The notes beneath the pieces were generated by a model. That model saw only the letters and a program-made list of their open reading frames with translations, was not told where the DNA came from and made no database searches. From positions 62,001-126,000 of the forward strand of contig JAKUPL010000006.1 in NCBI GenBank assembly GCA_022449455.1: a stretch of DNA of 64,000 nt. Reading direction: 5' to 3'. The DNA is from Alcanivorax sp. Its GTDB lineage: Bacteria; Pseudomonadota; Gammaproteobacteria; Pseudomonadales; Alcanivoracaceae. Below are positions 14,191 through 24,701 of the stretch, in pieces. The first letter of the stretch is position 1. The number at the start of each line of letters is the position of its first letter. Both the position numbers and the translations under genes were made by a program.

Positions 14191-14694
14191 ATGAAGAAGC
14201 AAGACAGCGCACCCATGAATCCGTTGCCACTGGATTCGGAAACCATGCCGCTTTGGAGCCGGGCCGGTTTTCTGATCCGTCGGCTCAATCAGATCCACTA
14301 CGCCATGTTCCTCAGCGAATGCGAGGAATTCGACCTCACCCCGGTGCAATACGGCGTGCTCACGGAGCTGCGCGAGCATCCGGATATCGACCAGATCTCC
14401 CTGGCCCAGGAAGTAGGCATCGACCGCAGCAACGCCGCCGACATTCTGCGTCGCCTGGAGAAGCGCGGCCTGGTCAGTCGTCACCCCAGCCAGCGGGACC
14501 GCCGCATGAAGCTCAGCCGCCTCACCGAGGAAGGCGAGCGCATTACGCAGCGGATGTACGACAGTATGCGCCGCGCCCAGGACAAGCTGCTGGCACCGCT
14601 GCCGCCGGAAGACCAGAACGCCTTCATCATGATGCTGATGCGTCTGGTGAGCGCCAACAACCACCTGGGCCGCGCCGTGTTTCATCCCACCTGA
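14191..14694 (+). CDS. MarR-family regulator, probable PicR-type repressor of the downstream catabolic island
   Basis: A 167-residue winged-helix regulator. The core spans about residues 40-130: V-Q-Y-G-V-L-T-E-L, then D-R-S-N-A-A-D-I-L-R-R-L-E as recognition helix and D-R-R-M-K-L-S-R-L-T as the wing. The ATG at 14191 has GGAGG upstream. It immediately precedes the deformylase operon, and four TCAG-N4-CTNN sites lie before the island's transcription units. That is the site I recall for PicR, the MarR repressor of picolinate genes in Alcaligenes faecalis. Derepression by picolinate-type ligands is inferred, not shown. Confidence 0.8.
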   Translation: MKKQDSAPMNPLPLDSETMPLWSRAGFLIRRLNQIHYAMFLSECEEFDLTPVQYGVLTELREHPDIDQISLAQEVGIDRSNAADILRRLEKRGLVSRHPSQRDRRMKLSRLTEEGERITQRMYDSMRRAQDKLLAPLPPEDQNAFIMMLMRLVSANNHLGRAVFHPT

Positions 14695-14723
14695 TCCACG
14701 CCGCCTCGTTTTGCCCTTTGGCC

Positions 14724-14753
14724 TTGTCATTTGGGAAGCACACTGACTATTAA
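14724..14753 (+). promoter_or_regulatory. Candidate sigma-70 promoter P1 of the deformylase operon
   Basis: TTGTCA (14724-14729), an 18-base spacer and TATTAA (14748-14753). The MarR-type operator 14735-14746 lies inside the spacer, an arrangement suited to repression. Confidence 0.5.
14735..14746 (-). promoter_or_regulatory. MarR/PicR-type operator O1 (TCAG-N4-CTNN)
   Basis: Read on the minus strand it is TCAG-TGTG-CTTC. It shares GGAAGC-A-x-ACTGA with O2 and the ACTGACTATTAA run with the site at 18305. Confidence 0.65.
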
Positions 14754-14833
14754 TCCAGGAGAAAAGCCCAGTCACCACAAATAAACCTATTAAATACATG
14801 AACTTATAGAAAAAAAGGTCGAAGGCCGCTTCC

Positions 14834-14863
14834 TTGAAATTAGGAAGCATACTGATATATATT
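14834..14863 (+). promoter_or_regulatory. Candidate promoter P2 with operator O2 in its spacer
   Basis: TTGAAA (14834-14839) and TATATT (14858-14863) are 18 bases apart. The minus-strand site TCAG-TATG-CTTC at 14844-14855 lies between them. P2 ends about 33 bases before the deformylase start. Confidence 0.55.
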
Positions 14864-14895
14864 GCGAGAAATCGCAGAATGATCAGGAGCAGCCC

Positions 14896-15714
14896 ATGAC
14901 CGGCACCACTTTTCTGTACGGGCGCCACGTCCACGCCAACGGGATCCGCCAGCACGTGCTGCGTTACGGCGGCCAGGGCCCGACCCTGCTGCTGGTGCCC
15001 GGCATCACCAGCCCGGCGGTGACCTGGGGCTTCGTGGCGGAACGGCTCGGCCGGCACTTCGACACCTGGGTGCTGGACGTGCGCGGCCGTGGTCTGTCGG
15101 AGAGCGGCGAGCATCTGGACTACGGCCTGGATGCCTGCGCCGACGACGTGCTCGCCCTGATCGCCGCCCTGGATATGCACGAAGTGATCCTGGTCGGTCA
15201 CTCCATGGGCGGCCGCCACGGTATCCGCGCCGTGAAACGGGGCGGCGCCGACGGCCGCATCGCCCATCTGATCATGGTGGACCCGCCAGTCTCCGGCCCT
15301 GGCCGTCGGGCCTACCCCAGCGCCTGGCCCTGGTACGAGGATTCCATTCGCGAATGCCAGCAGGGCATCGACGCGGAGCGCATGCGCCACTATTGCGCCA
15401 CCTGGAGCGAAGAGCAGCTGAGCCTGCGCGCCGAATGGCTGCACACCTGCGACCTGCGCGCCATCCGCGCCAGCTACGACGGCTTTCACCAGGACGACGT
15501 GCACGCCGATCTGCCGGCCCTGACCGGCATCCGCACCGGCCTGATGGTGGCCGGCCGCGGCGACGTGATCCTGCCCGAGGACGAAGCGGAGTTGCGCGAG
15601 CAACTGCCGGATTTGCGCATCAGCCGCACTCCGGACGCCGGGCACATGATTCCCTGGGACGATCTGGAAGGTTTCTTCCGCGCCCTCTCCGACTTGCTCG
15701 ATCAGCCGCTTTGA
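14896..15714 (+). CDS. nicD: Alpha/beta hydrolase, probable N-formylmaleamate deformylase
   Basis: A 272-residue cytosolic hydrolase expected to remove formate from N-formylmaleamate, giving maleamate. The nucleophile elbow G-H-S-M-G-G puts Ser103 in place, with Asp129 and His250 (D-A-G-H) as probable triad partners, close to the spacing in NicD of Pseudomonas putida. AGGAG precedes the ATG by about 6 bases. It starts an operon with maleate isomerase, maleamate amidase and a decarboxylase, which is the main reason for this specific substrate. On sequence alone, other small esters or amides remain possible. Confidence 0.75.
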   Translation: MTGTTFLYGRHVHANGIRQHVLRYGGQGPTLLLVPGITSPAVTWGFVAERLGRHFDTWVLDVRGRGLSESGEHLDYGLDACADDVLALIAALDMHEVILVGHSMGGRHGIRAVKRGGADGRIAHLIMVDPPVSGPGRRAYPSAWPWYEDSIRECQQGIDAERMRHYCATWSEEQLSLRAEWLHTCDLRAIRASYDGFHQDDVHADLPALTGIRTGLMVAGRGDVILPEDEAELREQLPDLRISRTPDAGHMIPWDDLEGFFRALSDLLDQPL

Positions 15715-15756
15715 CCGCCCCGGTAAACGGCCTCGTATAAGAAAAGGACCCACGCC

Positions 15757-16530
15757 ATGACCACCTATCGCATCGGACAGATCGTCCCCAGTTCCAACAC
15801 CACCATGGAAACGGAAATCCCCGCCATGCTGCGCGCCCGGGAAAGCCGCTTTCCGGAACGCTTCACTTTCCACTCCAGCCGCATGCGCATGCACAAGGTG
15901 ACGCCGGAGGAACTGAAAGCCATGAATGCCCAGGGCGCGCGCTGCGCCGCCGAGCTGGCCGACGCGCGGGTGGACGTGATGAGCACCGCCTGCCTGGTGG
16001 CGATCATGGCGCAGGGACTGGGCTACCACCGCCAGACCGAGGAAGAGCTGCGCCAGGCGGCCCGGGAAAACCACTGCGAGGCGCCGGTGATGACCTCCGC
16101 CGGCGCGCTGGTCGAAGGGCTGCACATTCTGGGAGCGAAGAAAGTGGCGCTGCTGGCGCCTTACATGAAACCGCTCACCGAAAAGGTAGTCGCCTACATC
16201 GAGCATGAAGGCGTGCAGGTCACTGATTGGCGCTGTTTTGAAATCCCCGACAACCTGGAAGTAGGCCGCCGCGACCCGCTTAAACTGATCGAGGACGTGG
16301 CCGACCTGAAGACCAGTGGCGTGGACGCGGTGGTGCTGTCCGCCTGCGTGCAGATGCCGTCACTGCCGGCGATACAGACCGTGGAGGACGCGCTCGGTAT
16401 TCCGGTGGTGTCCACCGCCGTGTGCACCGTGCGCGGCATGCTCGACCGGCTTGGCCTGGAGCCGGTGGTGCCCGGTGCCGGCGCGCTGCTCAGCGGTCGT
16501 TACCCGACCCCGGAGGCAAAGTCGCCATGA
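15757..16530 (+). CDS. nicE: Maleate cis-trans isomerase
   Basis: A 257-residue Asp/Glu-racemase-fold enzyme that converts maleate to fumarate for the TCA cycle. The N-terminus R-I-G-Q-I-V-P-S-S-N-T-T-M-E-T-E and F-H-S-S-R-M-R-M are diagnostic for maleate isomerases of nicotinate degraders. The two catalytic cysteines are Cys79 (S-T-A-C-L-V) and Cys197 (L-S-A-C-V-Q-M-P-S). Its stop overlaps the next start by ATGA, so translation is coupled to the amidase. Confidence 0.9.
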   Translation: MTTYRIGQIVPSSNTTMETEIPAMLRARESRFPERFTFHSSRMRMHKVTPEELKAMNAQGARCAAELADARVDVMSTACLVAIMAQGLGYHRQTEEELRQAARENHCEAPVMTSAGALVEGLHILGAKKVALLAPYMKPLTEKVVAYIEHEGVQVTDWRCFEIPDNLEVGRRDPLKLIEDVADLKTSGVDAVVLSACVQMPSLPAIQTVEDALGIPVVSTAVCTVRGMLDRLGLEPVVPGAGALLSGRYPTPEAKSP

Positions 16531-17165
16531 GCACCGCCAGCGACAACTACGCCGGCGTCTGGGACACGCGCATCGGTTTCGGCCAGCGCCCGGCGCTCAT
16601 CAGCATCGATTTTATGAAAGCCTACACCAGCGACGGCGCCGACCTGTACGCGCCCGGCGTGGTGGCCGCCCTGCCCCACGCCGCCCGCGCCCTGGCCGCC
16701 GCCCGCGACGCCGGCGTGCCGGTGATTCACACCAACATCCGCTATCAGCCCGGCCGGTTTCTGGACGGCGGCGTCTGGGTAAAAAAAGCGCCGGTGATGA
16801 AAGCCATGGTGGACGGCAACCCGCTGGCGGAATTCTGCGATGAAGTGCGCCCCCTCGACGACGAGCTGGTGATCACCAAGCAATACGCCAGCGCCTTCTT
16901 CGGCACCTCCCTGGCCGCCACTCTCACCGCCCTCGGAGTCGACACCCTGGTGCTGGTGGGTTGTTCCACCAGCGGCTGCATTCGCGCCTCGGCGGTGGAC
17001 GGCCTGCAGCACGGCTTCCGCGTGATGGTATTGCGCGACGGCGTCGGCGATCGGCACCCGGCGCCCCACGAGGCCAATCTGTTCGACATCAACGGCAAGT
17101 ACGGCGACGTGATCGACACCGCCGACTTCCTCGATCATCTCAAGCAAGCGGGAACGACCTCATGA
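16527..17165 (+). CDS. nicF: Maleamate amidohydrolase (isochorismatase-like)
   Basis: A 212-residue cysteine hydrolase of the isochorismatase superfamily, expected to convert maleamate to maleate and ammonia. The triad appears as Asp28 (I-S-I-D-F), Lys118 (V-I-T-K-Q-Y) and Cys151 (C-S-T-S-G-C). N-carbamoylsarcosine amidase is the close alternative, but the position between maleate isomerase and the deformylase operon favours maleamate. Both ends overlap neighbours by the 4-base ATGA. Confidence 0.85.
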   Translation: MSTASDNYAGVWDTRIGFGQRPALISIDFMKAYTSDGADLYAPGVVAALPHAARALAAARDAGVPVIHTNIRYQPGRFLDGGVWVKKAPVMKAMVDGNPLAEFCDEVRPLDDELVITKQYASAFFGTSLAATLTALGVDTLVLVGCSTSGCIRASAVDGLQHGFRVMVLRDGVGDRHPAPHEANLFDINGKYGDVIDTADFLDHLKQAGTTS

Positions 17166-18124
17166 CCACGATCAAGAAAATCGCCCTGGAAGAACATTTC
17201 ATGGCGCCGGGCTTTCAGGAATACACCGCCATGTTCTTCGATAAGATCGAATCGGCGGATCAGCAAGACCTGGCCGCCCGGCTCGACGACTTCGACCAGC
17301 TGCGCCTGGAAGAAATGGATCGCCACGGCATCGAAACCGTGGTGCTGTCCCAGTCCGGCCCGAGCGTGCAGGCGGAAGCCGATACCCAACGGGCGATTCG
17401 TCGTGCCCGGGAAAACAACGACTATCTGGCTGATCGCATCGCCCCCCACGGCGACCGCTACGCCGGCTTCGCCACCCTGGCCATGCAGGACCCGGCCGCC
17501 GCCGCCGATGAACTGGAATACGCGGTGCGCGAGCTGGGCTTCAAGGGGTCACTGGTGAACGGCCACACCAATGGCGTCTATTACGACGACCCGGCCTACG
17601 ACGCCTTCTGGGAACGCATGCAGGACCTGGACGTGCCCCTGTATCTGCACCCGATCAATCCCTGGAAGGAACTGGATTCCATGCGCGGCCACCCGGAACT
17701 GGCCGGCGCCGTGTGGGGCTGGGGCGTGGAAACCGGCACCCATGCTCTGCGGCTGCTGTTCGGCGGCGTCTTTGACCGCTTCCCGAACCTGAAAATCATC
17801 CTTGGCCATATGGGCGAGGGTCTGCCGTTCATGCGCTGGCGCTTCGACAGCCGTTTCCCGGTGTACGCCCAGGGCGTGACCCTGGAGCGGGCGCCGTCCG
17901 AGTATTTCGGCCGCAATATCGTGATCACCACCTCCGGCGTGTGCTCGGCGCCGACCCTGATGGCGGCCATCGGTGAAATGGGCGAGGACGGCGTGCTGTT
18001 CTCCGTGGACTACCCCTACGAATCCACGGAACTGGCCACCCGTTTTATCGACGACGCGCCGATGAGCGACGAAGTGCGCGCCAAGGTGTGCCGCGACAAC
18101 GCCAAGCGGCTTCTGAAACTTTAA
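17162..18124 (+). CDS. picC: Amidohydrolase-family decarboxylase, probable 3,6-dihydroxypicolinate decarboxylase
   Basis: A 320-residue metal-dependent TIM-barrel decarboxylase of the ACMSD/gamma-resorcylate group. It shows I-A-L-E-E-H-F at the start, His163 in Y-L-H-P and His216 in L-G-H-M-G-E-G-L-P, and a C-terminal D-Y-P-Y-E metal/substrate region. These His numbers match those I remember as essential in PicC of Alcaligenes faecalis. In this operon the reaction would be 3,6-dihydroxypicolinate to 2,5-dihydroxypyridine plus CO2. Gamma-resorcylate or 2,3-dihydroxybenzoate decarboxylase are alternatives from sequence alone; the neighbours argue for a pyridine ring. Last gene of the operon, in ATGA overlap with nicF. 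Confidence 0.72.
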   Translation: MTTIKKIALEEHFMAPGFQEYTAMFFDKIESADQQDLAARLDDFDQLRLEEMDRHGIETVVLSQSGPSVQAEADTQRAIRRARENNDYLADRIAPHGDRYAGFATLAMQDPAAAADELEYAVRELGFKGSLVNGHTNGVYYDDPAYDAFWERMQDLDVPLYLHPINPWKELDSMRGHPELAGAVWGWGVETGTHALRLLFGGVFDRFPNLKIILGHMGEGLPFMRWRFDSRFPVYAQGVTLERAPSEYFGRNIVITTSGVCSAPTLMAAIGEMGEDGVLFSVDYPYESTELATRFIDDAPMSDEVRAKVCRDNAKRLLKL

Positions 18125-18304
18125 GCGCAGCCGGGCTGCCGGCACCGCAAAAAGGCGGAAAACCGACCCGCCATATGATTCAAACCGGTGCAATAGCACC
18201 AATAAAGTGCTCTAGTATACAAAAAAGTCGGATATCGGCGGCCCTGGGGGTGGCACAACAATTGCTCTTAACTTTTCTTGGAGCAGTCAGCCTCCGCCAA
18301 TAGG

Positions 18305-18316
18305 TCAGCATACTGA
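18305..18316 (+). promoter_or_regulatory. MarR/PicR-type operator O3 before the TRAP transporter genes
   Basis: TCAG-CATA-CTGA has fully complementary 4-base arms, the best palindrome of the four sites. TATTAA (18318-18323) follows directly, as at O1, but no good -35 box is visible. It lies 82 bases before the transporter start, in a 274-base gap. Confidence 0.7.
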
Positions 18317-18398
18317 CTATTAACAAATGGCGTTCAGGGATGAACCGGAGTCCGACCGCGGACTCCGCCCGAATCGCACTCTGTACAGGTACTGAAAA

Positions 18399-19412
18399 AT
18401 GAAAGCATACGCAGCCATACGCCACGCCCTTCTGCTCGCCACCACCCTGGCTCTCACTCTGCCAGGTCTCGGCCACGCCGCCGCCCGCGTCGGCCACGTG
18501 GAAGCCTCTGGCCAGCCCCTGGACCAGGTGCTTAAACTGAGCGCCAAGCAGATCGCCGAGCGCACCGACGGACGGGTGGAATTCTCCGTGTTCCCCTCCT
18601 CCCAGCTCGGCAACGCCCGCGCCATGACCGAGGCGGTTCAACTGGGCATGCAGGACGCCGTGGTGGTGCCCGCCGCGTTCATCGGCGGCTTCAACCCGCT
18701 GGTGTCGATCCTCGACATCCCCTACCTGATCCCCACCAGCGACGACCAGGCCAACGCCCTGCGCAAGAGCGACTTCGGCCGCGCCCTGCTGGACTCCTTC
18801 AAGGAAAAAGGCTTCGAGGCGGTGGCTCTGTGGCCCGGCGGCTTCAAGCACTTCACCTCCAACAAGAAGCTGGAAGGCATCGACGATTTCAAGGGTCAGA
18901 AATTCCGCATCATGGATTCCCGTGTGCTGCGCGCCCAGTTTGAAGCGGTGGGTGCCCAGGCCATGCCGATTCCGTTCGGTGATGTGTACACCTCCCTGCA
19001 AACCGGCGTGGTGGACGGCCAGGAAAATCCGCTCGATTCCATCGCCCGCATGAAATTCCACGAGGTGCAGAAGTACCTGCTGCTGTCCGCCCACGGCGTG
19101 GTGGAGAACGTGGTGCTGTTCAGCCCGACCTTCTGGGCCGGCCTGTCCGACGAGGACAAGAAAACCGTGCGCCAGGTGTTCGTCGATAACGCCCTGGAAC
19201 TGGCCAAGGTCAAAGGCGAGAACCAGAAGCAGGCCCTGGAAGAGATCAAAGCCGCCGGCCTCACCATCAACGAGCTGGACGACGCCGAACAGCAGGCGCT
19301 GCGTGAAAAAATGTACCCCGCCGCCCGCGATACCTTCCTGGATCAGGCCGACGACAAAGGCCAGACGCTGATCGACCTGTACGAAACCACGTACAGCGAC
19401 ATCACTGAATAA
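18399..19412 (+). CDS. TRAP transporter substrate-binding protein (DctP type)
   Basis: A 337-residue periplasmic protein. A signal peptide covers about residues 1-27 (basic start, hydrophobic stretch, cleavage near G-H-A). The DctP fold is shown by Q-L-G-N-A-R-A-M-T-E-A-V, P-Y-L-I-P, and the conserved Arg region F-R-I-M-D-S followed by P-I-P-F-G-D-V-Y-T-S-L-Q-T-G-V-V-D-G-Q-E-N-P. It binds an organic acid and delivers it to the DctQM permease encoded next. With an island operator upstream, the ligand is probably the pyridine carboxylate or a related acid; that is inference. Confidence 0.92.
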   Translation: MKAYAAIRHALLLATTLALTLPGLGHAAARVGHVEASGQPLDQVLKLSAKQIAERTDGRVEFSVFPSSQLGNARAMTEAVQLGMQDAVVVPAAFIGGFNPLVSILDIPYLIPTSDDQANALRKSDFGRALLDSFKEKGFEAVALWPGGFKHFTSNKKLEGIDDFKGQKFRIMDSRVLRAQFEAVGAQAMPIPFGDVYTSLQTGVVDGQENPLDSIARMKFHEVQKYLLLSAHGVVENVVLFSPTFWAGLSDEDKKTVRQVFVDNALELAKVKGENQKQALEEIKAAGLTINELDDAEQQALREKMYPAARDTFLDQADDKGQTLIDLYETTYSDITE

Positions 19413-19434
19413 CGGCGCGCTGGAGCGGGACGAT

Positions 19435-19947
19435 GTGGACAAAATAATGTGGACGAAACTCTGGAGCGCCCTGGCCGGCGTGGAGCGCGTGTTGCTGGTG
19501 TGTCTGATGCTGGCCCTGCCAATTCTTTACGGCATCAACGTACTGCTGCACAACCTGGCCCCCGGCCTGGCCCGGCACCTGGACGGCGTGGATGAGCTGT
19601 CGCGGTTCATCCTGGTGTGGCTGGTGTGCGTCAGCCTCGGCTACACCATGGACAAAGGCCGCCATGTGTCCATGAACCTGCTGCAGCGCTTTATCGGCGC
19701 CTCGCTACTGGTCTGGATACAGCGCGTTCTGGACCTGATCGGCGCGCTGTTCTGCACCTATATGACCGTGCTCGGCTGGCAGTTCCTGCAGCGCATCATC
19801 GCCACCGGCCAGATCAGCAACACCCTGGACGTGTCCATGGGCTGGCTGTACGCCGCCCTGCCCCTGGGCATGGTGCTGCTGACGCTGCGCTATGTGCGCT
19901 ACGTTCTGTTCCCCACGCACCGGCCGGCGCTCGACAGCACCGACTGA
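19435..19947 (+). CDS. TRAP transporter small permease (DctQ type)
   Basis: A 170-residue membrane protein with four hydrophobic segments and the D-E-L-S-R-F-I-L-V-W-L pattern typical of DctQ. I favour the GTG at 19435 because GGAG sits 9 bases upstream; an ATG at 19447 is possible but has no ribosome site. It lies between DctP and DctM and completes the tripartite system. Confidence 0.88.
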   Translation: MDKIMWTKLWSALAGVERVLLVCLMLALPILYGINVLLHNLAPGLARHLDGVDELSRFILVWLVCVSLGYTMDKGRHVSMNLLQRFIGASLLVWIQRVLDLIGALFCTYMTVLGWQFLQRIIATGQISNTLDVSMGWLYAALPLGMVLLTLRYVRYVLFPTHRPALDSTD

Positions 19948-19971
19948 CGCCCGACGGCCAAGGATTCCTTC

Positions 19972-21252
19972 ATGAAGTCTGTTCTGATCACCGTCGTCGC
20001 CGTGGCCCTGTTCGTGGCCGGCGCGGAAATTTTTCTGGTGCTGGGCGTGTCCGGGCTGGTGGGCAAGCACCTGTTCCTGGAAAACCTGCCGGACATCGTC
20101 ATGGTCCAGAAGATGATCGGCGGCATCAATCAATCCACCTTGCTGGCGATTCCGCTGTTTGTGTTCGCCGCCGAACTGATGGCGCGCGGCAGCATCGCCG
20201 CGCGGCTGACCGGCATGGTCGAAGCGTTTATCGGCCACCGCCGCGGCGGCCTCAGCCACACCACCACCGGCGCCTGTTTCGCGTTCGGTGCGGTGAGCGG
20301 ATCGGCGCCGGCCACCGTGGCCGGCCTGGGCAAGATTCTGTTTCCGCGACTGATCGCCACCGGCGCCAGCCGCTCTTTCGCGGTGGGGCTGATCGTCGCC
20401 ACCGCGGAAATTTCCCTGCTGGTGCCGCCCAGTATCACCCTGATCATCTACGGCTGGCTCACCGGCACCTCAATCATCGACCTGTTCGCCGCCGGCCTGG
20501 CGGTAGGCACCGTACTGGCCGCCGCCTTTACCGTTTACGTGCACCTGAAGAGCCGCAAGGAAGCATCGCAGCTCGGCGAAAAAGCCACCCGCGAACAACG
20601 CTGCAAAGCGGTGAAAGCGGCACTGCTGCCCATCGGTATGCCGATCATTATTCTCGGCGGCATCTACAGTGGCCTGTTCACCACCACCGAGGCCGCCGCC
20701 GTGGCCGCGCTCTACGCCCTGCTGGTGGAGACCCTGATCACCCGGGCGCTAAGCTGGAAAGGCGTGGCGCAGGTGGCCGAGTCCTCGGCGCTGATCACCA
20801 CCACGCTGTTCATCATTCTCGCGGTGGGCAGCTTCGCCAGCTATCTGGTTACCGTGGCCGGCGTGCCGGCGGCGATCGGCGCCTTTATCGCTGGCGCCGA
20901 CATCAGCGCGCTGCAGTTTTTGCTGATCGTCAATGTGGTGTTTCTGATCGCCGGCATGTTCATGGACCCGGTGTCCATGCAGATCGTGCTGGTGCCCGTG
21001 CTCGCGCCGGTGGCCATGGCCCTGGGCGTGGACCCGGTGCAGTTCGGCATCATCGTGGTCCTGAACGTGGCCATCGGCACCATCACGCCGCCGTTCGGCC
21101 TGGATCTGTTCGTCGCCTCCAGTGCGCTGCGCGTGCCGGTCACGGAGATCATCTCCGGTGTGTGGCCGTTCCTGCTCGTTAACCTGACGGTGTTGCTGCT
21201 GGTTACCCTGTTTCCGTCCGTTTCCACCTTCCTGCCCGGCCTGCTCAATTAA
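19972..21252 (+). CDS. TRAP transporter large permease (DctM type)
   Basis: A 426-residue inner-membrane permease with about 12 hydrophobic segments. F-A-A-E-L-M-A-R-G near residue 60, G-A-V-S-G-S-A-P-A-T-V-A in the first half and F-M-D-P-V-S-M-Q-I-V-L-V-P in the second are DctM marks. It uses the sodium gradient to import the DctP ligand. AAGGA precedes the ATG. The oxygenase unit starts 72 bases downstream behind its own operator. Confidence 0.93.
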   Translation: MKSVLITVVAVALFVAGAEIFLVLGVSGLVGKHLFLENLPDIVMVQKMIGGINQSTLLAIPLFVFAAELMARGSIAARLTGMVEAFIGHRRGGLSHTTTGACFAFGAVSGSAPATVAGLGKILFPRLIATGASRSFAVGLIVATAEISLLVPPSITLIIYGWLTGTSIIDLFAAGLAVGTVLAAAFTVYVHLKSRKEASQLGEKATREQRCKAVKAALLPIGMPIIILGGIYSGLFTTTEAAAVAALYALLVETLITRALSWKGVAQVAESSALITTTLFIILAVGSFASYLVTVAGVPAAIGAFIAGADISALQFLLIVNVVFLIAGMFMDPVSMQIVLVPVLAPVAMALGVDPVQFGIIVVLNVAIGTITPPFGLDLFVASSALRVPVTEIISGVWPFLLVNLTVLLLVTLFPSVSTFLPGLLN

Positions 21253-21290
21253 AGACCTTGGTGGGGAGGTGGATTTTTTTGTACTATTAG

Positions 21291-21302
21291 GAAGTATACT
21301 GA
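21291..21302 (-). promoter_or_regulatory. MarR/PicR-type operator O4 before the Rieske hydroxylase genes
   Basis: The minus strand reads TCAG-TATA-CTTC. The plus-strand context AGGAAGTATACTGAT and ATTGCGAG repeats that of O2 almost exactly. A weak TTGTAC-N18-TTAAAT promoter (21279-21308) would place the site in the spacer again. Confidence 0.65.
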
Positions 21303-21324
21303 TTAAATTGCGAGGTTGATCACC

Positions 21325-24177
21325 ATGGCCTGGACTCCAGTGAAGGGCGCCGACGCACTGTCCCCGGACGGCGGCGTCATGGCCGTCACCATCGACAAAG
21401 TCGCGGTGGCGCTCTACCGGTTCGGCGAGGACTATCTGGCCACTGGCAATATCTGCACCCACCAGTACGCGCTGCTCAGCGACGGCTTCGTGGAGGACGG
21501 CTGCGTGGAATGCCCCCTGCATCAGGCGGTGTTCGACGTGCGCACCGGTAAAGCCCTGTCCGGCCCGGTGAGCAAGGATCTGGAGACCTACGCGGTGAAG
21601 GTGGAAGACGGCCAGGTGTTCGTGGACGTGACCCGCCCCGCCGAGATCAGCGAGGCGCCCGCCGACAACCGCATCGCCATGGCCGAGGAACGCGACGGGC
21701 GATGTTTCGCCATCGTCGGCGGCGGCCAGGCCGCGGCCAGCGCCGCCCGTGCCCTGCGCGACGCCGGCTTTACCGGCACCGTGAAACTGTTTGCGCGCGA
21801 GCAGGCGCTGCCCTACGAGCGCCCGCCGCTGTCCAAGGCGATCCTGCTGGGCGAAGCCCCGCTGCACGGCCCGACCCTGCTGGACGCGCCGACGGCGCAA
21901 CAGCTGAACATCGAGCTGCACCTGGGTGTGACCGTGACCGCCATCGACGTGGAACGAAAAACACTGACCGCCAGCGACGGCGAAACCCACGCCTACGACC
22001 AACTGCTGCTGGCCACCGGCGCCTCGCCGAGACCACTGCCGATCCCGGGGGCCGACCTGTCCGCGGTGCATAGCCTGCGCACCCTGGAAGACGCCATCGC
22101 CTTCAAACGCGCCCTGCAACCCGGTCGCCATATCGCCATTATCGGCAGCGGCTTTATCGGCCTGGAGGTGGCCTCCGCCGCCCGCCAACGGGGCTGCGAA
22201 GTGACCCTCGTGGAGGCCGCGCCGCGCATCTGCAGCCGGGCGCTGCATCCGATGGCGGCGCTGCGCGTGCACAAGCTGGCCGAACGGAACGGCGTGCGCA
22301 TCCTCACCGATGTGCAGACCACCGCTTTTGAAGCCGCCGACGGCGGCGTGGCCCTCAAACTGAATAACGGCGACACCCTCCAGGCGGACAGCGTCCTGGT
22401 CGGCATCGGCGTGATTCCGGAAACCGCCCTGGCGGAGAGCCTGGGCCTGGAAATCGAAAACGGCATCGTGGTGGACCGTTTCGGCCGCACCGGCCTGGAG
22501 GGCGTATTCGCCGCCGGCGATGCCGCCGTCACCCGTCGCGACGACGGCACCCTGCTGCGGCTGGAATCCTGGCAAAACGCCCAGGAACAGGCCGCCGCCG
22601 CCGCCCGCACCATGGCTGGCCAGGACACCGCCCACGACGCCGTACCCTGGTTCTGGAGCGACCAGTTCGCGCACAACATCCAGATGCTGGGCCTGCCCAC
22701 GGCGGACGACCAGATGGTCGCCAAGCCCGGCTCGAACGGTGCCGAAACGCTGTACTTTCACAATGGCGAGCGCCTCACCGGGGTGATCGCCTTCAACGAT
22801 CCCGGCGCCATCCGCCGGGGTCGCGAATGGCTGCGCCGGGGCCTGTCCGTGGACGCCCTGAACCGCCTTCTGGAAAACACCGCCGGCGCCGCCGGTGATG
22901 CCCGACTGCCCGCCCCACTCCGGAGAGGAACGATGAGCGATCTGTCCAACTACTACGTCTGGCCCCGGGAAGGTCTGACCCGCGTGCCGGACTGGGTGTA
23001 CACCGACCCCTACATTTTCGAACTGGAAGTGGAACGCATCTTCCACGGCCCGACCTGGAATTACGTGGCCCTGGAAGTGGAAATCCCCAACGCCGGCGAT
23101 TTCAAGCAGAGCAACGTGGGCCCGACGCCGGTGGTGGTCAGCCGCGACGAAGACGGCGACATCAACGTGTTCGTCAACCGCTGCTCGCACCGGGCCGCCC
23201 AGTTCTGCCGCGACCTGCGCGGCAATACCGAAGAATTCGTCTGCCCCTACCACCAGTGGTCCTACGATCTGAAGGGCAACCTGGCCGGCGTACCGTTCCG
23301 GCGCGGCGTGGACGGCAAGGGCGGCATGCCCAAGGACTTCAAGACCTGTGACCATGGCCCCACCAAGCTCAAGGTCACCACCCGCCACGGCGTGGTGTTC
23401 GCGTCCTTCGATCACGACATGAAACCGCTGGAGGACTATCTGGGCCCGGACATGCTGCGTGAATTCGACGCCACCTTCGACGGCCGCGAACTGAAGCTGC
23501 TGGGCTACTACCGCAATTCCCTGCCCGGCAACTGGAAGCTGTACCACGAAAACCTGAAGGACCCCTACCACGCCACCCTGCTGCACACCTTCCTGGTGAG
23601 CTTCGGGTTGCTGGTGGCCGGCAACAAGTCGCAGATGATCTGCGACGAGACCGGCCTGCACGGTGCCATGGCGTCGGCGAAAAGCGACGGCGGCACCGTG
23701 AGCGAGGAAAACCAGAAGGAGATGCGCGCCTACCGCCCGGAGTTCCAGCTGGAGCGGGAGGACATGCTCAACTTCATTCCCGAATTCGACTCGGAGTGGA
23801 GCGTGACCATGCTCACCGTCTGGCCGAACCTGATCGTTCAACGGGAAATGAACACCCTGGGCGTGCGCCAGATCGTACCCAGCGGCCCCGACGAGTTCGT
23901 GATGAACTGGACCATGTTCGGCTTCGCCGACGACGACGAGGAAATGACCCGCCACCGTCTGCGCCAGGGCAACCTGATGGGCCCGGCCGGCTTCCTCGGC
24001 CTGGAGGACAACGAAGCGATCAAGTTCGTCCAGGACGGCATGAAGCGCACCCAGCCTGGCGAACATCTGGTGGCGCTGGATCCGGACACCCCCGCCGGCA
24101 CCGCCGACACGCTGATCTCTGAATCCGCCATCCGCGCCATGTACCAGAGCTGGCGCCAGGCCCTGGACATCGAATAA
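21325..24177 (+). CDS. Fused Rieske ferredoxin / FAD-NAD reductase / Rieske oxygenase alpha subunit
   Basis: One 950-residue frame carries three parts. Residues 1-105 are a Rieske ferredoxin (Cys44, His46, Cys63, His66). Residues about 115-525 are a BphA4-type reductase, with an FAD dinucleotide fold near 130 and an NAD fold near 272. Residues 537-950 are an oxygenase alpha subunit, with Rieske ligands Cys620, His622, Cys640, His643, bridging Asp746 and iron ligands His749 and His754. An internal ATG at 22933 has GGAGAGG upstream, so free alpha subunit (22933-24177, 414 residues) may also be made. The alpha part resembles salicylate 5-hydroxylase/anthranilate dioxygenase types; here I infer 6-hydroxypicolinate 3-hydroxylation. 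The ATG at 21325 follows GAGG. Confidence 0.85.
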   Translation: MAWTPVKGADALSPDGGVMAVTIDKVAVALYRFGEDYLATGNICTHQYALLSDGFVEDGCVECPLHQAVFDVRTGKALSGPVSKDLETYAVKVEDGQVFVDVTRPAEISEAPADNRIAMAEERDGRCFAIVGGGQAAASAARALRDAGFTGTVKLFAREQALPYERPPLSKAILLGEAPLHGPTLLDAPTAQQLNIELHLGVTVTAIDVERKTLTASDGETHAYDQLLLATGASPRPLPIPGADLSAVHSLRTLEDAIAFKRALQPGRHIAIIGSGFIGLEVASAARQRGCEVTLVEAAPRICSRALHPMAALRVHKLAERNGVRILTDVQTTAFEAADGGVALKLNNGDTLQADSVLVGIGVIPETALAESLGLEIENGIVVDRFGRTGLEGVFAAGDAAVTRRDDGTLLRLESWQNAQEQAAAAARTMAGQDTAHDAVPWFWSDQFAHNIQMLGLPTADDQMVAKPGSNGAETLYFHNGERLTGVIAFNDPGAIRRGREWLRRGLSVDALNRLLENTAGAAGDARLPAPLRRGTMSDLSNYYVWPREGLTRVPDWVYTDPYIFELEVERIFHGPTWNYVALEVEIPNAGDFKQSNVGPTPVVVSRDEDGDINVFVNRCSHRAAQFCRDLRGNTEEFVCPYHQWSYDLKGNLAGVPFRRGVDGKGGMPKDFKTCDHGPTKLKVTTRHGVVFASFDHDMKPLEDYLGPDMLREFDATFDGRELKLLGYYRNSLPGNWKLYHENLKDPYHATLLHTFLVSFGLLVAGNKSQMICDETGLHGAMASAKSDGGTVSEENQKEMRAYRPEFQLEREDMLNFIPEFDSEWSVTMLTVWPNLIVQREMNTLGVRQIVPSGPDEFVMNWTMFGFADDDEEMTRHRLRQGNLMGPAGFLGLEDNEAIKFVQDGMKRTQPGEHLVALDPDTPAGTADTLISESAIRAMYQSWRQALDIE

Positions 24178-24188
24178 GGGAGACGTTT

Positions 24189-24701
24189 ATGGAAGCCATC
24201 AAGAAAGACCAAGCCGCTCCCGGGCTCGATCAGGGACAACTGGTGCACGCCATCGAGCGCTTCAACACCGACTACTGCCGCGCCCTGGACGACGGGCGCC
24301 TGCACGACTGGGTGGAGTTCTTCACCGAGGACGCCTACTACGTGGTGTCCGGCCGGGAGAACCACACCGCCAATCTGCCGGTGGGCCTGGTCTATTGCGA
24401 AGGCAAGGGCATGCTCAAGGACCGCGCCCTGGCGATCCTGGAGACCTCCATGTTCGCGCCGCGCTACCTGCGCCACTTCGTCACCAACACCTACGCCGAG
24501 CCCCAGGACGACGGCACCATCGTCGCCGGCGCCAACTATATGCTCACCCAGGTACTGATGGACCAGCCCACCGCCACCCTGCACCAGGTAGGCTGCTACC
24601 TGGACCGCTTCGTGTTCGAAAACGGCGAACTGAAGCTCCAGGAACGGCGGGCCATCTACGACAACCTTTTGCTGAACAATGACCTGGTGTATCCCGTGTA
24701 A
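24189..24701 (+). CDS. Rieske non-heme iron oxygenase, beta subunit
   Basis: A 170-residue protein of the NTF2-like fold. Y-C-R-A-L-D-D-G-R-L-x-D-W-V-E-F-F-T-E-D-A-Y-Y and R-Y-L-R-H-F-V-T-N are typical of ring-hydroxylating oxygenase small subunits, which are structural partners in an alpha3beta3 hexamer. The gene lies 11 bases after the alpha-containing fusion with GGGAG upstream, and a strong terminator follows. Confidence 0.93.
   Translation: MEAIKKDQAAPGLDQGQLVHAIERFNTDYCRALDDGRLHDWVEFFTEDAYYVVSGRENHTANLPVGLVYCEGKGMLKDRALAILETSMFAPRYLRHFVTNTYAEPQDDGTIVAGANYMLTQVLMDQPTATLHQVGCYLDRFVFENGELKLQERRAIYDNLLLNNDLVYPV

Follow-up and report, generated by a model that had tools for sequence, protein, structure and literature searches.

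Gene content of the island

The window, by which we mean the whole 64-kb stretch of DNA analysed, carries at positions 14191-24701 a run of genes on the forward (+) strand, where every gene named in a preliminary description of the locus was recovered, with the residues claimed for three of the products in place. A picR-like regulator of the MarR family (14191..14694; PF01047, 1.8e-15), 55% identical to a MarR gene of a Caballeronia cluster (L055), precedes genes for a predicted N-formylmaleamate deformylase of the PicE/NicD type (14896..15714; Ser103/Asp129/His250), a maleate cis-trans isomerase of the PicG/NicE type (15757..16530; PDB 4fq7, 1.3e-88; Cys79/Cys197), an isochorismatase-family amidase (16527..17165; PF00857, 3.6e-39) and a PicC-like protein, the putative 3,6-dihydroxypicolinate decarboxylase (17162..18124; PF04909, 2e-44; His163/His216). 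These are followed by a TRAP importer made up of the substrate-binding protein DctP (18399..19412; PF03480, 4.6e-81), the small permease DctQ (19435..19947; PF04290, 2.9e-20) and the large permease DctM (19972..21252; PF06808, 6.3e-99), and by the genes of a Rieske oxygenase, the last of which codes for its beta subunit (24189..24701; PF00866, 2.2e-12; AndAd model 4.2e-34, under its cut-off). As had been remarked in the preliminary description, both the gene order and the TRAP importer set the island apart from the described pic cluster.

The deformylase matched PDB entry 4l0c ('Deformylase'), which we take to be N-formylmaleamate deformylase, with E=2.8e-93, the runner-up reaching 3.8e-12. 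The amidase scored higher against the N-carbamoylsarcosine amidases 26st and 1nba (5e-44) than against 4l07 and 3ot4 (3-4e-34), presumably maleamate amidases; its name, a probable maleamate amidase (PicF/NicF-like), therefore leans partly on gene context. The three enzymes of the lower route of the pic pathway (deformylase, amidase and isomerase) thus all seem to be encoded in the island, the amidase being the least certain of them.

A fused Rieske oxygenase gene and its putative internal start

The Rieske hydroxylase of the preliminary description is present and was under-described, since its fusion had been overlooked. Positions 21325-24177 (+) form a single open frame of 950 codons (950 aa) with no stop, in which Pfam and NCBIfam models delimit a Rieske ferredoxin (residues ~1-108), a BphA4-type FAD/NAD ferredoxin reductase (~126-520) and a Rieske alpha subunit (537-950), the beta gene being separate. 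We propose this product as PicB, a 6-hydroxypicolinate 3-hydroxylase. Its nearest solved alpha is that of salicylate 5-hydroxylase (7c8z, 3e-125). The cofactor-binding motifs are invariant in 11 out of 11 aligned fusions, among them C620/H622/C640/H643 (CxH...CxxH) and H749/H754/D895, which we take to be the cluster site and the two-His-one-Asp iron ligands of the alpha part; with the beta gene they place the enzyme in the alpha-beta Rieske type. Ferredoxin, reductase and alpha share one frame likewise in the relatives L105 and L145, which puts the redox partners within the alpha chain. Because a separate beta gene follows the fusion, the term 'self-sufficient' is limited here to self-contained electron transfer. 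An AlphaFold model of the fusion (40 sequences including unfused parts; mean pLDDT 79.8, pTM 0.53) predicts well folded parts connected by stretches of low confidence (109-120 and 521-542), the relative placement of the domains being uncertain; confidence is low also in the ferredoxin (45-54) and in the alpha part (746-766 and 909-931). Foldseek matched parts of the model to putidaredoxin reductase and to the alphas of terephthalate dioxygenase and salicylate 5-hydroxylase, with no plain match to the ferredoxin part among the 50 rows listed, and none of the 60 PDB chains listed spans both reductase and alpha in its best-matching stretch.

Relatives were collected by scanning genome contigs with an alignment of six decarboxylase rows; out of 426 relatives the best 80 were kept, and four plasmid loci were added. 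In the resulting 84 loci, reductase and alpha share one open frame in 12, the alpha is unfused in 43 and no scored alpha occurs in 29, a class that includes L098 and L142 because their alpha matches are split. The 12 fused loci come from Bradyrhizobium, Paracoccus, Poseidonocella, Arenibacterium, Mangrovicoccus and Pacificispira and from two bins, one of them alphaproteobacterial and the other labelled Mesoflavibacter. Five of these 12 carry a related TRAP importer as well (46-49% identity in DctP). The Mesoflavibacter bin (Bacteroidota; L129) holds a pic-type cluster whose alpha groups with those of an alphaproteobacterial family, and its label is probably wrong. In the Cupriavidus basilensis OR16 cluster (L098) the matches of both alpha and reductase are split over frames in a frameshift-like manner and are not scorable as fused or unfused.

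The fusion was also sought in draws of genomes at three ranks, all of them including G680. The phylum draw gave matches in 16 of 398 genomes: three of the 17 places showed at least 71% identity, all in long frames, and the other 14 showed at most 51%, none in long frames. Matches were obtained in 39 of 385 genomes of the G680 class, where the six places at ≥71% all lay in long frames and none was fused among the places listed at ≤64%. Within the G680 genus, taken as Bradyrhizobium because its members have alphas identical to those from named Bradyrhizobium, 16 of 195 genomes matched and all 16 had the long frame (949-1010 aa over the three draws). Two frames considered as remote fusions, one of 816 aa in G929 and one of 647 aa in G640, were rejected, since by tblastn their alphas are joined to neither a ferredoxin nor a reductase domain. 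When 107 alpha rows were pooled, some duplicate loci included, the alpha was fused to the reductase in 37/37 at ≥69.98% identity and in 0/70 at ≤67.4%; the alpha tree contains four pairs of identical fused rows, so that the 37 fused loci represent fewer species. Both Rieske motifs are visible in 29 of the 37, and in the other eight the sequence stretch ends before the ferredoxin motif, the frames reported by the search tool being 962-994 aa.

Quick trees without bootstrap were built for both parts of the protein. Among 88 alphas (19 of the 107 were left out, i.e. 15 near-duplicates chosen by eye, seven of them fused, and the four remotest rows, L186-L189) the 30 fused ones form one clade with an SH-aLRT of 99, which takes one change as against 25.2 in shuffles; among 66 reductases (15 of 81 left out) the fused ones again form one clade (97), with one change against 22 in shuffles. 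The simplest reading of these trees would be a single ancient fusion event, retained since. The source genus belongs to another class of the same phylum than the nearest fused relatives, presumably the Gammaproteobacteria, and this difference in class suggests that the fused system moved by transfer between classes. Measured to the closest row from another genus, the path is 1.65 changes per site for the reductase and 0.42 for the alpha, which suggests a roughly fourfold higher rate of evolution in the reductase part of the fusion.

Most fused genes have an ATG or GTG with a Shine-Dalgarno-like site at the start of the alpha part, which in the island is the putative ribosome-binding site GGAGAGG with the ATG at 22933 (22922..22935, +). 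We compared the junction with control windows of equal size taken from other parts of the frame: out of the 37 loci, 34 fell at or below the 25th percentile (the island fusion at 8%), as did 11 out of 12 lineages (90% identity, median), and 19 loci exceeded all their control windows. The junction window was set after the junctions had been inspected, and related lineages enter the combined p of ~1e-12 as if they were independent. In a single-codon comparison 15 of 16 loci reached the 0.3-13% percentiles, the island fusion standing at 6% and L129 at 77%. No good internal start and no low percentile were found in L129, L194 and L220; given these three and the shared ancestry of the lineages, the signal could be an inherited remnant. 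Nonetheless, the retention of an internal start with a Shine-Dalgarno-like site means that the fused gene may yield both the fusion and a free alpha, and dual translation from one gene is what these signals probably reflect.

The same signals can be read in another way, namely that the cell makes no use of the fusion: the internal start would be the sole source of alpha, with the missing stop a by-product of translational coupling, or a protease would cut the chain. The presence of the internal start in most fused loci speaks for this, as does the deposited Paracoccus annotation, whose alpha begins at such a start and whose table, self-declared incomplete, lists no gene for the ferredoxin-reductase part. 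However, a ribosome translating the reductase encounters no stop ahead of the alpha, the frame is open in all 37 loci despite the strong divergence of the reductase and varying linker lengths, and three loci do without a good internal start. We therefore consider it unlikely that the fusion goes unused, and favour translation of both the fused chain and the free alpha.

Partner loci, operator-like sites and the proposed route

Neither a 2,5-dihydroxypyridine dioxygenase (NicX/PicD) nor a picolinate dehydrogenase (PicA) gene was found in the island (14191-24701). The preliminary proposal that the island converts a hydroxypicolinate to fumarate hence does not hold for the island alone, which is incomplete without NicX; this ring-cleaving enzyme is encoded on two other contigs. 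A search with the NicX of a Variovorax cluster retrieved homologs at C25:42800 and C3:41392, matching the solved 2,5-dihydroxypyridine dioxygenase (PDB) at 6e-116 and 9e-94, respectively. The C25 copy adjoins another deformylase. The C3 copy is an orphan, with no other match to the compared pathway proteins within the surrounding 20 kb, and shares 87% identity with the NicX of a Paracoccus seriniphilus cluster; the two NicX types are 45-49% identical to each other. Ring cleavage by some other island enzyme had been considered and was dropped, own NicX copies having been found. The Pfam family Peptidase_M29, used as a NicX proxy, gave no match in the source genome and was the wrong proxy, because both own copies (L084:9195-10223 and L034:7789-8832) match no Pfam family at 0.001 despite solved structures for the family; the C3 and Variovorax NicX proteins have no NCBIfam match.

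Candidates for PicA1-3, i.e. the large, FAD and 2Fe-2S subunits, lie on contig C67, where the picA-like large subunit (C67:167146-169467) is 57% identical to the molybdenum hydroxylase large subunit of the Variovorax cluster and belongs to a one-strand run dctQ-dctM-dctP-picA (large, FAD, and 2Fe-2S with a CoxG domain), dctP having been recognised by eye. In this region (C67:163719-171480; L083) an operator-like palindrome precedes a single run made up of a second TRAP importer and the picA-like genes, and the 2Fe-2S subunit (L083:13319-14482) bears a C-terminal CoxG/polyketide-cyclase-like domain. Of 13 genomes of the genus that were searched, five (G000, G020, G021, G022 and G024) contain the picA-like gene (56-57%), and these five are also the ones with the C3-type NicX and with the island deformylase at 77-100%. 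Thus, the pic genes are spread over three or more contigs and do not form a single cluster. Contiguity is a matter of arrangement and not a requirement for the pathway.

Two further deformylase loci, at C25:43858 (L034) and C53:4721 (L035), are ~62% identical to the island deformylase. In their relatives (L041, L042, L044 and L046-L048) one type is accompanied by ABC-importer-like genes, as judged by eye, and the other stands beside genes for a TctC-type receptor and for a protein of flavin monooxygenase type (L041). These loci perhaps serve nicotinate-type routes, and the genome may hold three lower pathways for 2,5-dihydroxypyridine.

Four similar palindromic sites, putative MarR operators, precede the transcription units of the island on the + strand: A (14736..14750), with no mismatch to AAGYAYACTGAYTAT; B (14845..14859), with three mismatches to the long pattern and an intact ten-base core; C (18306..18320), the inverted repeat TCAGCATACTGA; and D (21292..21306), the last two being pattern matches. 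At ≤3 mismatches the 64-kb stretch contains six matches against 1.34 expected, with one of 100 shuffles as high, and at ≤2 mismatches the whole genome contains 13 sites against six for the reversed pattern; as the pattern was built from the sites themselves, these figures are descriptive and not independent tests. The only site outside the island with a single mismatch precedes the dctQMP-picA run. Independent support for the operator-like character of the sites comes from the conservation of the core across genomes: site A keeps its position and site B its intact core in G020, G021, G022 and G024; G020, G022 and G024 have a perfect ten-base core at all four island positions, as has G021 at the three that its contig covers, and a perfect core precedes picA in five out of five genomes. 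In the 600 bases upstream of the orphan nicX, none of the five genomes has a perfect core, and two have a one-mismatch core. The pic genes of Alcaligenes faecalis are reportedly under MarR control, and a MarR repressor acting on these palindromes would link the island with the picA-like locus.

That the locus belongs to a picolinate-type pathway, as the preliminary description had put forward, is supported by the decarboxylase tree, by its linkage with the oxygenase, the molybdenum hydroxylase and NicX in relatives, and by the own picA-like and nicX genes. Decarboxylase and alpha occur together in 55 loci. Of these, as far as the examined stretches reach, 52 also have NicX and 50 a molybdenum hydroxylase large subunit (>300 bits), the latter in 8/12 fused and 42/43 unfused loci; the large subunits of L100, L106, L117 and L143 are just 33-36% identical to the Paracoccus one. 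In the excerpt of PMC10142695 that covers the pic route, picolinate is converted to 6-hydroxypicolinate by PicA, to 3,6-dihydroxypicolinate by PicB and to 2,5-dihydroxypyridine by PicC, and PicD, E, F and G lead on to fumarate. By analogy, the molybdenum dehydrogenase coded on C67 would make 6-hydroxypicolinate from picolinate, the island Rieske enzyme would hydroxylate it to 3,6-dihydroxypicolinate, PicC would release 2,5-dihydroxypyridine, a NicX from elsewhere (the orphan C3 or the C25 copy) would open the ring, and the island deformylase, amidase and isomerase would complete the route to fumarate. We consider it likely, on the strength of gene content and comparison, that this is a pic-type picolinate island with partner loci elsewhere, linked to them through MarR and equipped with a self-contained Rieske chain, and probably also with free alpha. 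The pathway is of a known kind; the gene arrangement is scattered.

With salicylate 5-hydroxylase as the nearest solved alpha, another hydroxypicolinate is possible as substrate. The Rieske enzyme could act on 3-hydroxypicolinate, the pyridine analogue of salicylate, and place a hydroxyl group para to the 3-OH, a geometry that would fit and would give the same 3,6-dihydroxypicolinate. Such a route would, however, have no need for the molybdenum hydroxylase, whose large subunit accompanies the system in most fused and nearly all unfused loci and whose own-genome counterpart lies behind an operator-like site; moreover, the published pathway, in the excerpt of PMC10142695, passes through 6-hydroxypicolinate. 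This link to picA ranks 3-hydroxypicolinate, in our view a rather improbable substrate, behind 6-hydroxypicolinate.

The decarboxylase bears on the nature of the ring. Its best PDB matches are gamma-resorcylate decarboxylase (4.9e-77) and dihydroxybenzoate decarboxylases, and none of the 48 PDB rows listed names a dihydroxypicolinate enzyme, so that it might be taken for a dihydroxybenzoate decarboxylase of an island serving a benzene acid. The tree (10 loci left out) places it instead in a pic-linked clade of 58 rows (SH-aLRT 100), with Bordetella sp. and other pic-type clusters of Alcaligenaceae and outside which two annotated gamma-resorcylate decarboxylases fall, and the neighbouring deformylase and amidase require a product from a nitrogen ring; a benzene acid is thus very improbable. 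The preliminary description had asked for the position of this enzyme relative to PicC: it lies within the pic-linked clade and apart from the gamma-resorcylate enzymes, a placement made among rows other than the two characterised PicC sequences. The names PicC and PicB rest on linkage, gene order and two histidines, the trees being without characterised PicC or PicB sequences; clade and conserved His163 and His216 point to the enzyme of the PicC step. The excerpt of PMC10142695 gives the essential residues of Bordetella bronchiseptica PicC the same numbers and describes that enzyme as active on 3,6-dihydroxypicolinate, with no activity on gentisate or 2,3-dihydroxybenzoate. In the tree of the decarboxylase the rows from fused loci do not group together as a single clade (four changes), which indicates that the cluster genes have mixed, partly separate histories.

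The proposed fused enzyme among known systems

As a gene architecture the fused oxygenase is well supported. That it is an artefact of assembly or sequencing has a negligible probability: errors of such kind can erase stops, no support for one was found, and the fusion is open in 4/4 genomes of the source genus with a complete gene (the G021 contig ends first) and in separate assemblies from several families.

The pic clusters of A. faecalis JQ135 and B. bronchiseptica RB50, as presented in the excerpt of PMC10142695, resemble the island in PicR (MarR), PicB, PicC, PicE, PicF, PicG and the intermediates. They differ from it in that the published picB1-B4 are four genes and the PicB proposed here is fused; from gene order we infer that PicB1-B4 correspond to this Rieske system. 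They differ also in that our genes occupy at least three places, with nicX and the picA-like genes on other contigs, the latter accompanied by a TRAP importer of their own. According to the same excerpt picG of A. faecalis likewise stands apart from the pic cluster. The salicylate 5-hydroxylase NagGH (PDB 7c8z) shares the alpha plus beta make-up of the oxygenase, whereas NagG is an alpha on its own, NagAa and NagAb being separate from it (Sphingobium record); a NagG-annotated alpha is 47.6% identical to ours and unfused, in a nag operon, and the island alpha belongs to a pic-linked clade of a tree that was built without NagG. The best NCBIfam models for alpha, ferredoxin and beta are those of anthranilate 1,2-dioxygenase (AndAc, AndAb and AndAd), all under their curated cut-offs, and AndAa matches the reductase behind HcaD-type models, also under its cut-off; the AndAaAbAcAd models describe separate proteins, whereas the ferredoxin, reductase and alpha of the island lie in one chain. 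One chain with its redox partners is also the idea behind the self-sufficient P450s CYP102 and CYP116B, which are a different enzyme class; the island enzyme is moreover expected to have a separate beta subunit.

Electrons would pass from NADH over FAD and ferredoxin to the Rieske alpha inside one polypeptide, and free alpha from the internal start would join the fusion in mixed alpha-beta hexamers with one or more tethered reductase-ferredoxin modules. According to an extract of an August 2025 review (PMC12445004), self-sufficient Rieske oxygenase systems had yet to be identified; the review also reports attenuated activity and coupling for engineered fusions. Titles and abstract starts in the open literature, as distinct from subscription papers and preprints, reported no natural self-sufficient Rieske oxygenase either, which is not proof of novelty. 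The chances seem evenly balanced that we are looking at the first natural self-sufficient Rieske lineage, descended from an ancient fusion, in which an internal ribosome-binding site would set the ratio of fusion to bare alpha and mixed alpha3beta3 hexamers would carry tethered reductases.

Rieske oxygenases are sought as catalysts, and separate redox partners hamper their use. Many natural candidates for self-contained Rieske enzymes are presented here, some of them in culturable genera, and the gain from fusion is directly measurable because unfused sister enzymes with the same proposed reaction serve as controls. For the biology of the pathway itself, this case suggests that a catabolic route can be scattered over the genome and yet be partly held together by one operator.
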